Assembly (NCBI GenBank): GCA_030426845.1 | Contig: JAUHXR010000023.1 | Coordinates: 1 to 49,514 of the forward strand | Source of the DNA: Polyangia bacterium | GTDB taxonomy: Bacteria; Myxococcota_A; Polyangia; Polyangiales; Sandaracinaceae | Length of the DNA stretch: 49,514 bases | Direction: 5' to 3' | Shown: positions 7,192 to 14,585 of the stretch, piece after piece | Position numbering within the stretch: position 1 is the first letter of the stretch | Layout: each line of letters begins with the position of its first letter | Notes under the pieces: model-generated | What the model was told of the DNA's origin: nothing | Seen by the model: the letters and a program-made list of their open reading frames with translations, nothing else | Databases searched by the model: none | Translations under genes and position numbers: made by a program

Positions 7192-7246
7192 GCCCGACAA
7201 GAGTACGTGCTAGTGCACGTGCACCTCCTCGCCGCCCCGAGCGAAC

Positions 7247-7402
7247 GGCGAAGCGAGGTCTCGCCTCGCAAGCGGACGGCGAAGCGAGGTCTCGCCTCGC
7301 AAGCGGACGGCGAAGCGAAGCCTCGCCTCGCAAGCGGACGGCGAAGCGAAGCCTCGCCTCGCAAGCGGACGAGCGTAGCGCAGTCCCGCCTCGCGAGCGG
7401 AC
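7247..7402. repeat. 31-bp tandem repeat array with internal hairpin
   Basis: Four units at 7247-7277, 7278-7308, 7309-7339 and 7340-7370 are identical or differ at only one or two positions. A fifth, decayed copy follows to 7402. Each unit begins GGCGAAGCGA and ends CGCAAGCGGAC. The first two units contain GCGAGG-TCTCG-CCTCGC, a perfect 6-bp stem. There are no unique spacers, so this is not CRISPR. Confidence 0.9.
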
Positions 7403-7428
7403 GAGCGAAGCGAAGTCCCCGCCGCCGC

Positions 7429-7662: not shown

Positions 7663-8247
7663 TCAGTGCCCCTGCTCGCGCGTGATCCCCGGGTGGGTGG
7701 GATCGCCCGGCTCGTGGCGGGGGTTCTCCGTGACGTACGTCCCGTCCTTGCCCGGGATCGACATCAGGGTCTCCTTGTCGAAGATGAAGTGCGAGCGATC
7801 GAACGACGCCGGGACGTGGACGCCGGTGTCCATCCGGATCGCGTCGCACGGGCACGCCTCGACGCAGTAGCCACAGAAGATGCAGCGGAGCTCGTCGATC
7901 ACGAAGACCCGCGGGTAGCGCTCGTAGCCCGCGCGCGGGTCGTCGGTGTCGTACTCCGCCGGCTCGATGTAGATGCACTGCGCGGGGCACGCGGTGCTGC
8001 AGCAGAGGCACGCCACGCAGCGCGGCGATCCGTCGGTGCGGTGGGTCAGGCGGTGGACGCCGCGGAACCGCTCCGGGTAGTCGCGCACCTCGTCGGGGTA
8101 GCGCACCGTCGCGATGACCTTGTTCTCCTCCTTGGAGAACGTGTTCTTGAAGAAGCGGCGGATGGTCAGCGCCATCCCCTTGGCCGCCTCGGGGAAGAAC
8201 GCCTGGTCACCCAGCGTGCGTTTCGGTCGGCTGATCTTGTAGGCCAT
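7663..8247 (-). CDS. nuoI: NADH-quinone oxidoreductase subunit I
   Basis: The 194-residue product is the hydrophilic complex I subunit that carries two 4Fe-4S clusters (N6a and N6b) and passes electrons towards NuoB. The two ferredoxin motifs are CVACLCCSTACP and CIFCGYCVEACP, each CxxCxxCxxxCP, about 40 residues apart as usual. The N-terminus (MAYKISRPKRTLG) fits the short amphipathic membrane-attachment region, and the C-terminus is a charged tail. It is the last gene of the operon, six bases after nuoH, with hairpins just downstream. Confidence 0.95.
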   Translation of the reverse strand: MAYKISRPKRTLGDQAFFPEAAKGMALTIRRFFKNTFSKEENKVIATVRYPDEVRDYPERFRGVHRLTHRTDGSPRCVACLCCSTACPAQCIYIEPAEYDTDDPRAGYERYPRVFVIDELRCIFCGYCVEACPCDAIRMDTGVHVPASFDRSHFIFDKETLMSIPGKDGTYVTENPRHEPGDPTHPGITREQGH

Positions 8248-8253
8248 CGGAGT

Positions 8254-9927
8254 TCAACCCAGCGCGAGGATGCCGACGCCGGTCAACAGGATGTTCACCA
8301 GCGAGAGGGGCAGGATGAGCTTCCAGCAGAGCTGCATGATCTGGTCGTAACGGAAGCGGGGGAGCGTCCAGCGGACCTGCATCATCAGGAAGACGAAGAC
8401 CGCGGTCTTGAGCAGGAACGCGAGGATCCCGATGAGCACGACCGCGCCGTGCCAGAGGGCGATGTTGAAGCCGAGCGCCTCGAAGTGGAAGCCGTCCTGC
8501 TCGAGGAAGGGCACGTCGTAGCCGCCGAAGAACAGCGTCACGATGAGCGCCGAGCTCGTGATGTGCTCGAGGAACTCGCCCGTCATGAACATGCCGAACT
8601 TGAAGCCCGAGTACTCGAGGAAGTAACCGGCCACGATCTCGGACTCGCCCTCGGGCGCGTCGAAGGGCACGCGCTTCATCTCGGCGATCGCCGCGAAGAA
8701 GAAGAGGATGAGCGCGAGCGGCTGGAGGAAGACGCCCCAGACGTGCGCCTGCTGCCAGGCGACCATCTCGTCGAGCAGCAGCGTGCCGTAGATCATGAAG
8801 CAGCCGACGAGGGTCAGGCCGAGCGTGACCTCGTAGCTGACCATCTGGCTCGCGGCGCGGAGGCCGCCGAGGAGCGAGTACTTGTTGTCCGACGAGTAGC
8901 CTGCGATCGCCGCGCCGACGATCCCCGTGCCCGCGATCGCGAACATGTAGAGGATGCCCACGTTGATGTTCGCGACCTGCAGCGGGATGACCGTGCCGTC
9001 GAACGCCGCGCCCACCGGCACCACGCTGGCGATGTAGGCGAGCGCGTCGCCCTCGGGGCCCCACATGAGGTCCGCGCCGAAGGGGATGACCGCGAAGGTC
9101 GCGAGCGCGGGGATCAGCGCGATGATCGGCGCGATCGAGTGGAGGAACTTGTCCGCGTTCGGCGGGACGAAGTCCTCCTTCCAGAACATCTTGAGCGAGT
9201 CGACCGCCGGGTGAATCAGGCCGAACACCGTGAGGTGGCCGCGCTTGTCGACGCTGTGGTGGACGAACCACGACGCGGGGAAGTGGACGAGCGCGATCAC
9301 CACGCCCCAGAACGCCATGTGGCCGTAGACCGAGGCGCTCATGCCGCTCTCGCTCACCGCCTCGAGGCCGTAGGTGCGCGCGAAGTAGATCCCGCCGATC
9401 GCGCTGGCCACCGCGAAGGCCACGCCGAGCCACGCGACCGCCTTGGCCCCCATCGTGGCCGGGCCGCGGATGAACTCCGCGATCGTGAGCTTGTCCTTGA
9501 ACGCGACCCCCGTGAGGAGCACCACCACGCCGCCCACCTGGGTCAGCGCCGCGACCGCGGTGATGAGCTGGTAGTGCCACGGGTTGTCGAGGACGAAGAG
9601 CTTCACGATCGGGCCGACCACCGGGACGGCCGCGTAGACCATCGAGCCGTCGGCGAGCGGGGCGTCGAAGTAGCGGCCGAGCGCCAGGTAGGCGGGCGTG
9701 ATCGACAGATCGAGCCCCATGCCCGCGAGGATCAGCGCGCCGCCCGCCGGGATGACGAGGCCCCAGAGCTTCATCGGGAGCGGGATGCCGGCCCGGACCG
9801 GGCCCACCCGGTCCTGCATCATCGCGCTCTGACGTCGCTCCACCCACACGAGGACGGGAGCGACGCCGAGCAGGACGGCGAGGACGAAGCCGATCTTGGC
9901 GAGGGTCGAGAGGATGAGGAGCGCCAT
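8254..9927 (-). CDS. nuoH: NADH-quinone oxidoreductase subunit H with large internal insertion
   Basis: This is the membrane subunit at the quinone-binding site of complex I. Family blocks are clear: ERRQSAMMQDRVGPVRAGI (residues 30-48), then GLIHPAVDSLKMFWKED (236-252), YSSDNKYSLLGGLRAASQMV and AEMKRVPFDAPEGESE (415-430). At 557 residues it is far longer than the usual 320-350. Residues about 49-235 are an insertion between the first two blocks, which are normally contiguous in the quinone-cavity loop. The insertion has about four hydrophobic segments, near residues 54-74, 119-143, 163-183 and 200-222, and an even number keeps the topology of the rest. The gene is three bases from nuoG and six from nuoI. 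Confidence 0.93.
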   Translation of the reverse strand: MALLILSTLAKIGFVLAVLLGVAPVLVWVERRQSAMMQDRVGPVRAGIPLPMKLWGLVIPAGGALILAGMGLDLSITPAYLALGRYFDAPLADGSMVYAAVPVVGPIVKLFVLDNPWHYQLITAVAALTQVGGVVVLLTGVAFKDKLTIAEFIRGPATMGAKAVAWLGVAFAVASAIGGIYFARTYGLEAVSESGMSASVYGHMAFWGVVIALVHFPASWFVHHSVDKRGHLTVFGLIHPAVDSLKMFWKEDFVPPNADKFLHSIAPIIALIPALATFAVIPFGADLMWGPEGDALAYIASVVPVGAAFDGTVIPLQVANINVGILYMFAIAGTGIVGAAIAGYSSDNKYSLLGGLRAASQMVSYEVTLGLTLVGCFMIYGTLLLDEMVAWQQAHVWGVFLQPLALILFFFAAIAEMKRVPFDAPEGESEIVAGYFLEYSGFKFGMFMTGEFLEHITSSALIVTLFFGGYDVPFLEQDGFHFEALGFNIALWHGAVVLIGILAFLLKTAVFVFLMMQVRWTLPRFRYDQIMQLCWKLILPLSLVNILLTGVGILALG

Positions 9928-9930
9928 CGA

Positions 9931-11565
9931 TTACTCCGCCGGAGCCGCGGACGGCTCGGTCGAGGTGGTCTCGCTGCTCGGGGGGAGCGGCTTGGGCATC
10001 GCGGTCCGGACGTCGCCGAGCCGCCGCCAGTCGATCTCCCAGCCGAGGTGGCGACCGATCTCCACGAGGGTCAGCCACGCGGGCTGGATGTCGCCGGGCG
10101 CCTGGAGCGCCTTCTTGAACTGCTGCGCCACGCCCTTGGCGTTGACGAAGGTCCCGCTGGTCTCCGCCACGCTCGCCACCGGGACCACCACCGAGGCGCT
10201 CGACGTGAGCGCGCCCGCGTTGGCCGTCAGGTTGACGTGCGCCGCCGTGCCCACGCCCTCGCTCACCAGGTTGGCGAGCGGAGCGAGCTCGGCCTCGCTG
10301 AGATCGGTGTCCGGCCCGAGCGAGAGCACCGCGCCGACGTCGCCGCGCTCGATGTCCTCGACGAGCTGCTCCATGCTGCGCGGCTCGCCCTTGGACGCCA
10401 TCGTCGCGCCGGCCCGGTTCGGGTTGGCGTCGGGGTGGCGCAGGATGTCGTCGCCGCGCCAGGGCGCGCGGGCGGTGAGGTAGAAGCGGTCGGTCTCGAA
10501 GTGATCGGCGGCGAGCTTCGCGAGGACGTAGTTGTCCTCGCTCGACGCCTGGGCGCTCAGGACCACCGCGAGGCGGCCCGGCTCGATCTTCTCGAGCACC
10601 CGCGCGGCCGCGCGGACCGCGTCGTCGCGGCTGACCTCGCTCGTGCGCCCCGAGGTGCGCACCCGGCCCGCGAGGATCCGATCCTCGTGAAACCGCTTGT
10701 AGGTCATCATGCCGTCGTCGCACATCCAGTACTGGTTGACCGCCTCGTTGTCGCGAGGCCGCAGCCGGTAGACGCGCTGGTAGCGCGGGTCGTAGTCGAC
10801 CCAGCTGTTGCAGCCGGTCGCGCAGCCCGTGCAGACGCTGGGCGCGCTCTTGAGGAACCAGACGCGCGCCTTGAAGCGGAAGTCCTTGCTCGTGAGCGCG
10901 CCGACCGGGCAGACGTGCTCGGTCATGAGCGTGTAGTCGTGGTCGAGCTCGCGGCCCGGGCTCACGACGATCTCGTTGACGTTGCCCCGCTCGCGCATGT
11001 CGAGCACGTGGTCCTTGGCGACCTCGTCGCAGAAGCGGATGCAGCGCGTACACATGATGCAGCGCTCGGCGTCGTAGACGATCGTCGGGCCGAAGCGCAC
11101 TGCCTTGGGCTTGTGCACCGGCTCGGTGCGCTTGCGCTTGAGCTTCGTCTGGGACGAGAGCCAGTAGTCTTGCAGCTTGCACTCGCCCGCCTGATCGCAG
11201 ATCGGGCAGTCGACCGGGTGGTTGAGGAGCAGGAACTCCTGCGTCGACTCCTGAGCCTTCAGCGCGTGATCGGAGCGCGCGAAGATCTCCATGTCCTCCT
11301 GCGCCGCCAGCTGACACGCGGGCTGGAGCTTGGGCTTGGTGGCCTCGACGTACTCATTCTTCTTCGCGTCCCACTTGAGGATCGGCAGCGCCATCTGGCG
11401 ACCGCTGCGGACCTCGACGAGGCACATGCGGCAGTTGGCGGCGATGGAGAGCCCCGGGTGCCAGCAGTAGTGCGGGATCTCGATCCCCTGCCGGTACGCG
11501 GCCCGGATGACCGTGTCGCCGGGCTCGAAGGGGATCTCTTGGCCGTCTAGCTTGAAGGTAGGCAT
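9931..11565 (-). CDS. nuoG: NADH-quinone oxidoreductase subunit G (short form)
   Basis: This is the iron-sulfur-rich peripheral arm subunit. The N-terminus is a 2Fe-2S domain (IPHYCWHPGLSIAANCRMCLVEV region, fourth Cys in QPACQLAA). Next come the HxxxCxxCxxxxxC N5 motif (HPVDCPICDQAGEC) and the 4Fe-4S motif CIMCTRCIRFC. A further set, CTGCATGC with a Cys about 29 residues later (YWMCDDG), matches the extra N7 cluster known in some bacteria. The rest is a truncated molybdopterin-oxidoreductase-like domain. At 544 residues it is shorter than the 680-900 of many homologues. It starts at ATG 11565, seven bases after nuoD. Confidence 0.93.
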   Translation of the reverse strand: MPTFKLDGQEIPFEPGDTVIRAAYRQGIEIPHYCWHPGLSIAANCRMCLVEVRSGRQMALPILKWDAKKNEYVEATKPKLQPACQLAAQEDMEIFARSDHALKAQESTQEFLLLNHPVDCPICDQAGECKLQDYWLSSQTKLKRKRTEPVHKPKAVRFGPTIVYDAERCIMCTRCIRFCDEVAKDHVLDMRERGNVNEIVVSPGRELDHDYTLMTEHVCPVGALTSKDFRFKARVWFLKSAPSVCTGCATGCNSWVDYDPRYQRVYRLRPRDNEAVNQYWMCDDGMMTYKRFHEDRILAGRVRTSGRTSEVSRDDAVRAAARVLEKIEPGRLAVVLSAQASSEDNYVLAKLAADHFETDRFYLTARAPWRGDDILRHPDANPNRAGATMASKGEPRSMEQLVEDIERGDVGAVLSLGPDTDLSEAELAPLANLVSEGVGTAAHVNLTANAGALTSSASVVVPVASVAETSGTFVNAKGVAQQFKKALQAPGDIQPAWLTLVEIGRHLGWEIDWRRLGDVRTAMPKPLPPSSETTSTEPSAAPAE

Positions 11566-13563: not shown

Positions 13564-14208
13564 TCAGTGCTCGAGCTTCTTGCGCTCGGTCCCCGCCAGC
13601 TCGGCCGCGGCGGACTCCGCCTGCTCGGCCTCGAGGCGCTCCATCTGCTCGACGCCGAACTCCACCGTCGAGGCCTTCTTCTTGAGCTGCGCGAGCGCGG
13701 GCAGGTGCTTGGGCGGGACGACCAGCGGGCCGTCCTTGCCCGTCTGGATCTTCTCCTGCAGCAGCATCAACCCGTCGAAGACCGCCTCGGGGCGAGGCGG
13801 GCAGCCGGGCACGAACACGTCGACCGGGATGATCTTGTCGATGCCGGGGACGGTCGTGTAGTTGTCGTAGAAGCCGCCGCACGACGCACAGGTGCCGAAC
13901 GCGAGCACCCACTTCGGGTCGGTCATCTGCTCGTAGATCCGGCGCAGGGCCGGCGCCTGGCGCTGGCTGACGGTGCCGACGACCCACAGCAGATCCGCCT
14001 GGCGCGGGCTGAAGCGGGGCGCCTCCGCGCCGAAGCGCGCCATGTCGTAGCGGGGACCCGCGACCGACATGAACTCCATCCCGCAGCACGCGGTGACGAA
14101 GGGGTACTGGAAGAGGGAGTACTTCTGCGCCCAGGCCAACAGATCGTTGAACCGGGTGGTGACGAACCCGGCGTCGAGCCCGCCGACGACCTGCTTCACC
14201 GTTCCCAT
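13564..14208 (-). CDS. nuoB: NADH-quinone oxidoreductase subunit B
   Basis: The 214-residue product binds cluster N2, the last iron-sulfur cluster before quinone. The tandem cysteines (TACCGMEFMS), GTCASCGGFYDNY and VPGCPPRPEA are all present, which is the complete N2 ligand set. I chose ATG 14208 (MGTVKQVVGG) over the upstream in-frame start at 14319 because the extension lies inside nuoA and has no family similarity. The gene overlaps nuoA by 13 bases. The C-terminal 40 residues are charged and probably helical, beyond the usual core. Confidence 0.96.
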   Translation of the reverse strand: MGTVKQVVGGLDAGFVTTRFNDLLAWAQKYSLFQYPFVTACCGMEFMSVAGPRYDMARFGAEAPRFSPRQADLLWVVGTVSQRQAPALRRIYEQMTDPKWVLAFGTCASCGGFYDNYTTVPGIDKIIPVDVFVPGCPPRPEAVFDGLMLLQEKIQTGKDGPLVVPPKHLPALAQLKKKASTVEFGVEQMERLEAEQAESAAAELAGTERKKLEH

Positions 14209-14555
14209 TCGAGCGCTCCCTTCTTCCACGCGTAGGCGAGCGTGATGAGCAACACCGAGATGAACAGCATCATCTCGACGAGCCCGAACCAGCCGAGCTC
14301 GCGGAAGCGAGCGCCCCACGGGTACATGAACACCGCCTCGATGTCGAAGACGACGAAGAGGATGGCGGTCAGGTAGAACTTCACGCTCAGGCGCACGTGC
14401 CGCGCGCCCGTCGACTCGGAGCCCGACTCGTAGGGGATGAGCTTCTCTTCGGTCGGGTTCTTCGGACCGAGCACAGAGCTCAGCGTGAACATCGCAACCG
14501 GGATAATCACCGCGATGCCCAGCATGATGAGCACCGGTAGGTAGACCTCGAACAT
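14196..14555 (-). CDS. nuoA: NADH-quinone oxidoreductase subunit A
   Basis: This is the small membrane subunit of complex I with three membrane helices: residues about 4-25, 59-80 and 88-108. The conserved loop (PYESGSESTGARHVRLSVKF) and FVVFDIEAVFMYPWG are typical. The ribosome site GGAGG lies at 14560-14564. It favours ATG 14555 over the adjacent GTG 14558, which sits against that site. First gene of the operon. Confidence 0.95.
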   Translation of the reverse strand: MFEVYLPVLIMLGIAVIIPVAMFTLSSVLGPKNPTEEKLIPYESGSESTGARHVRLSVKFYLTAILFVVFDIEAVFMYPWGARFRELGWFGLVEMMLFISVLLITLAYAWKKGALEWER

Positions 14556-14585
14556 CACTCCTCCGAGCGGGTGGCCGTCCGGGGG

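Follow-up and report, generated by a model that had tools for sequence, protein, structure and literature searches.

Background

Core subunits of complex I are among the most conserved of all membrane proteins, and how quinone passes through the narrow entrance in subunit H (ND1) is an open question. The bottleneck of this entrance is formed by TM1, AH1 and TM6 of subunit H (PMC8799541, PMC10663621), and simulations of the Thermus enzyme indicate that TM1, AH1 and the connecting loop take part when it opens (PMC8799541). In human ND1, Ala52, which is mutated in LHON, lies at the bottleneck (PMC10663621). A subunit H in which this loop carries a large additional segment raises the questions of what the segment is, how widely it is distributed and what it might do beside the gate. 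Such a protein is encoded in the stretch of DNA analysed here (hereafter the window), 49,514 nucleotides from a bacterium of the order Polyangiales (contig JAUHXR010000023.1), whose nuoH gene specifies 557 residues; canonical NuoH, ND1 and Nqo8 (PF00146) have about 318–372 in solved structures.

In this study we use 110 NuoH proteins extracted from the order of the window, together with genomes from elsewhere in the phylum, to reconstruct the distribution and history of the segment. It appears to be an order-specific structural variant of NuoH and is apparently undescribed: searches of openly available full-text journal papers found none that describes such inserts in the NuoH of these bacteria. 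The order amounts to a natural experiment, since the number of extra helices that NuoH carries at the gate ranges from none through two and four to more, which would allow quinone kinetics and inhibitor sensitivity to be compared directly and may reveal how accessory elements of the membrane come into being.

Results and discussion

The nuoH gene and its surroundings

The nuoH gene (8254..9927, minus strand) was delimited from its open reading frame and translation and lies between nuoG upstream (9931..11565, minus strand) and nuoI downstream (7663..8247, minus strand), within a nuoA-B-C-D-G-H-I cluster that is otherwise ordinary. It is the only PF00146 gene in its genome and matches the Pfam model with an E-value of 1.1e-96 and 324 bits against a gathering cut-off of 27, nearly the whole profile being covered in two stretches that flank the insert. 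The equivalog cut-offs of the NCBIfam NuoH models, which are thresholds for annotation and not biological features, are not reached (the best score, again in two stretches, is 281.8 bits against 305 for NF004741), probably on account of the split and of the divergence of the protein, and since Pfam, fold and gene context agree we do not take this shortfall as exclusion from NuoH. The protein retains every column that is invariant among 58 homologues, and the invariant charged and Q-loop residues are present as E30-R31, D39-R40, D243, K246, K250-E251-D252, E416, K418-R419, P421-F422-D423, E426 and E430 (window protein numbering). The protein thus shares core fold, invariant residues and gene neighbourhood with canonical NuoH, and differs from it in having, in place of the usual but non-defining short loop between TMH1 and AH1, 186 extra residues with four predicted helices.

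Several simple origins of the extra length were considered. Fusion with NuoA is ruled out, as nuoA is a separate and ordinary gene (14196..14558, minus strand; PF00507). There are no tandem repeats in the nuoH gene and no second copy of the insert in the genome. Internal duplication was likewise rejected, the first half of the insert having no match in the second (hhalign probability 3.9%). Elsewhere in the locus, a 31-bp tandem array (5.7 copies, 92% match) lies at 7240-7417, immediately outside the nuo cluster on its 3' side, and the single-copy nuoK is found on another contig (G000:C443:3219-3515), so that the complex I genes of this genome are split.

Site and predicted structure of the insert

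Alignment with phmmer to NdhA of T. elongatus (PDB 6nbq, 6hum) pairs residues 47 and 234 of the window protein with the adjacent NdhA residues 69 and 70, leaving residues 48–233 (9229..9786, minus strand) between TMH1 and AH1 without an NdhA counterpart. The original prediction, made from the DNA alone, had placed a membrane insert at 9222-9786, which is right to within a few bases. It had also taken the two conserved blocks on either side to be normally contiguous; the nearest insert-free relatives, however, join them by a 14-residue turn of the KIGKFELRL type, such as NRAVIKIGKFELRL, at the insertion point, and the net gain is therefore about 177 residues. By NdhA alignment the window insert measures 186 residues and counted from the RVGP block 191; lengths across the order are given by the second measure, which starts at the RVGP block and stops eight residues short of the DxxK block.

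An AlphaFold model computed from a 58-sequence alignment (mean pLDDT 78, pTM 0.69) has a normal NuoH core and four long helices in the insert, the number that had been predicted. The core matches solved E. coli and Thermus NuoH with Z of 32–34 (for 7z7v_H, Z 34 with 315 of 323 residues aligned at an rmsd of 2.9). The insert would begin with a low-confidence helix, TMa (residues 52–69, 9721..9774; pLDDT ~60), also present in the relative G001, followed by a net negatively charged loop, predicted to be periplasmic (residues 70–115, 9583..9720) that is disordered in the model (pLDDT < 50 over 71–115) and by TMb (residues 116–142, 9502..9582; pLDDT ~67-75). The second half, predicted with higher confidence, comprises an amphipathic start with helix TMc (residues 149–186, 9370..9483; pLDDT 80-90) and helix TMd (residues 198–225, 9253..9336; pLDDT ~80-87 over most of its length). 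TMc and TMd are common to the two-helix relatives and align with the NuoH of L003/G005, TMc at the segment starting AEFIRGP. At the base of the insert DSSP assigns two short strands in the model, residues 48–49 (9781..9786) and 231–232 (9232..9237), after which comes AH1 (model helix, residues 235–249, 9181..9225), with the quinone-bottleneck positions (PMC8799541, PMC10663621) and conserved columns at G236, D243, K246 and, just beyond the helix, K250; all of these features are on the minus strand. Predicted in isolation the insert gives a poor model (pLDDT 60), and none of the solved chains among the matches listed in sequence and fold searches with NuoH covers it.

In the predicted topology both ends of the insert are cytoplasmic and the charges satisfy the positive-inside rule, which supports the argument that an even number of helices keeps the topology: TMH1 would end in the cytoplasm, and the chain would cross the membrane four times and return there before entering AH1 and the normal NuoH fold. 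The insert by itself matches no Pfam family over cut-off and no NCBIfam model; the one candidate for a known domain, Erg28, was rejected as sub-threshold (E 0.037). Heme binding by histidines of the insert was also discarded, as the histidine of the VHFP stretch in TMd is kept in only some relatives.

Distribution within the order

The original prediction implied a peculiarity of one protein; instead, inserts of variable size are widespread in the order. Of the 110 sampled proteins, 67 have an insert at this point, with the frame kept, so that inserted forms outnumber insert-free ones, and the norm of 320–350 residues assumed for NuoH, which holds for the protein family in general, does not hold here. 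The original prediction named a widespread NuoH variant as a finding that would refute it; the insert is such a variant within the order and not in the protein family at large. By size, 31 inserts have 71–105 residues, 34 have 145–161 and two are larger (191 in the window protein and 281 in G001), while 43 proteins have the 14-residue turn. Inserts of about 90 residues correspond to two helices and those of 145–161 to four; within these insert-bearing NuoH proteins insertion point and return to the cytoplasmic side are as in the window protein and it is the helix number that differs, the two-helix forms nearest to it sharing only its last hairpin. In nearly all inserts the initial stretch ends in [LMIV]P. 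The 281-residue insert of G001 (L072) has further hydrophobic stretches between the third and fourth helices of the window protein and may have six helices or more in all.

Ten genomes belong to the window's own family, and in them every NuoH of the window type has an insert at the site (eight of 89–96 residues, that of 191 in the window protein and that of 281 in G001), the NuoH of L003, as printed, being indistinguishable from those of G005 and G006. One genome of the family also encodes a second, insert-free NuoH of ordinary type (L080 / G003:C623); G003 is listed at 4% contamination. These data bear on the suspicion that the segment is an artefact of assembly or sequencing or a fused or frameshifted neighbour, which might be entertained for an assembly of 538 contigs. 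Against this, the nine other genomes of the family all carry an insert at the site, G001 shares the first half of the window's insert, NuoA is separate and not fused, and an insert also occurs in assemblies that consist of just one or two contigs (G007, G008, G130) and in some complete genomes; we regard an artefact as having a negligible chance of being correct.

When 112 genomes from across the phylum were searched with PF00146, no such insert was seen outside the order, the main NuoH matches listed from there running unbroken through the site. Ten proteins, mostly of unusual length, were fetched, and in all nine that could be parsed the site holds 5–28 residues. The absence outside the order is a result for the sampled genomes and not for the whole phylum. 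Since hits of unusual length have been removed from at least one survey of Nuo proteins (PMC12361115), surveys filtered in this way may miss the insert-bearing forms.

Evolution of the insert

On a tree built from the NuoH core alone, presence and absence of the insert require eight changes on the best topology and the size classes eleven. The window protein groups with G001 and G005/G006 with a support of 99, so that either the first hairpin was gained together with G001 or G005/G006 have lost it. The first half of its insert is 57% identical to G001 and the second half 55% to G005; overall, the insert halves are 47–57% identical between the window and its relatives and the core 75–83%, a pattern that a part facing the lipid at the periphery, yet under constraint, would be expected to show. 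Differences at third codon positions underestimate the neutral rate here, because third-position GC in this nuoH is 0.93–1.0.

Relationships among the inserts are harder to trace. The four-helix inserts of the large family f12 and that of the window have a similar helix order and similar motifs by eye, and HMM scores between them fall inside block-shuffled controls, that is, there is no detectable sequence similarity; they may have arisen separately, or a former similarity may have been erased. Profile comparisons that include the flanks suggest a relationship between the two-helix inserts of f1 and those of f4; with the flanks trimmed, only G005/G006 exceed all 500 shuffles. As to the starting point, we propose that the module grew out of the tip of the short TMH1-AH1 turn, because the two strands of the model stand at the base of the insert where the insert-free relatives have the turn.

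Repeated changes in presence and size show that complex I works without the insert. They would also be in keeping with an elaboration that is nearly neutral, in which a hydrophobic hairpin arose in a permissive surface loop and was then enlarged, shrunk or lost with little effect on function. Sizes of 0, about 90, about 150, 191 and 281 residues inside one order, the many changes on the tree, an insert less conserved than the core and the missing similarity between the f12 and window inserts all speak for such a history. However, frame and fold have been kept over a long divergence, and within clades the size is constant (91–93 residues in the 20 inserts of f4, 145–161 in the 34 of f12), which argues for selection on the fold; we give neutral elaboration roughly one chance in four.

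The insert and the quinone gate

The original prediction placed the insert in a quinone-binding loop. The TMH1-AH1 loop does adjoin the quinone entrance but is not quinone-binding as such. In our own alignment of the ADAMK/VDSLK segment, human Ala52 corresponds to window residue 244, eleven residues past the insert, and because the insert occupies the TM1-AH1 loop, which moves on opening, the extra helices would sit beside the quinone gate.

From this position a change in the kind of quinone used had been suggested, and two observations might seem to favour it: the site adjoins the entrance (PMC8799541), and futalosine-pathway genes (PF02621) occur in 25 of 43 insert-free genomes against 2 of 67 carriers. 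The two routes, through MenD and through futalosine, nevertheless both make menaquinone. MenD exceeds its curated cut-off in 12/12 carriers tested and in 6/10 insert-free genomes, and three of the other four of the latter have futalosine genes (in the insert-free G025 there is only a part-length MenD match, below cut-off); genes for menaquinone synthesis are thus present in the carriers and in most insert-free genomes tested. Ubiquinone hydroxylases stay below their cut-off in every genome tested. That futalosine genes are rare among carriers is moreover confounded with ancestry, from which it cannot be separated with so few independent contrasts. An altered quinone is accordingly very improbable.

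The reading that best explains the data as a whole, and which we hold with about even confidence, is that the window protein is the functional NuoH of its genome's complex I and that the insert is a fast-evolving, clade-specific accessory membrane module, built into the subunit and packing against the quinone gate. This module would most likely be an accessory domain, covalently attached, that is surrounded by lipid at the heel of complex I next to TMH1 and AH1. There it would lend stability to TMH1 and to the place where membrane arm and peripheral arm meet, and would restrain or shape the approach to the quinone entrance from the lipid side, rather than bind quinone or pump protons. The existence, site and distribution of the insert and the retained core are established from the data, helices and topology are predicted, and where the module packs and what it does are inferred. 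In E. coli NuoH, TMH1 and part of the TMH1-AH1 loop are not resolved because of their mobility (PMC8357420); that this NuoH does without any such module is a point against an accessory-module role.

Comparison with accessory subunits

Extra helices beside ND1 at the quinone-entrance end are known from the heel of the mitochondrial enzyme, where they belong to NDUFA1, NDUFA3 and NDUFA13. NDUFA1 fills the groove between TMH1 and TMH7 of ND1 (PMC8762328), and Y30 of human ND1, which contacts NDUFA1 (PMC9696053), is near the insertion point. These are separate single-helix proteins, unlike the helices of the window protein, which are part of a core subunit, and the comparison is one of working likeness only. 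A broader proposal, which we put forward tentatively, is that in this one order the TMH1-AH1 loop, part of the quinone gate, has become a membrane domain, variable in size with two to about six helices, which controls the access of quinone or lipid, an internal counterpart of the eukaryotic accessory subunits possibly acquired more than once.

The heel could also be a place of contact, with the insert serving as a docking site for a supercomplex partner (for instance a quinol-oxidising complex) or for a lineage-specific accessory protein. Mitochondrial accessory subunits do bind at the membrane helices of the heel (PMC8762328), and the clade-wise presence of the insert is what co-evolving partners would lead one to expect; its fast divergence argues against one conserved interface, and we consider docking improbable.

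A helix built into subunit H itself has a precedent in Thermus Nqo8, which has an extra transmembrane helix where NDUFA13 sits in eukaryotes (PMC8762328). This helix, TMH9, is at the C terminus, and the window protein has no such tail. C-terminal extensions of ~67–88 residues with one more hydrophobic helix, absent from the window protein, were seen in L094-L110, L157, L164 and other NuoH proteins of f12 and f7, and in the f12 examples printed they end in SPMQA or a close variant.
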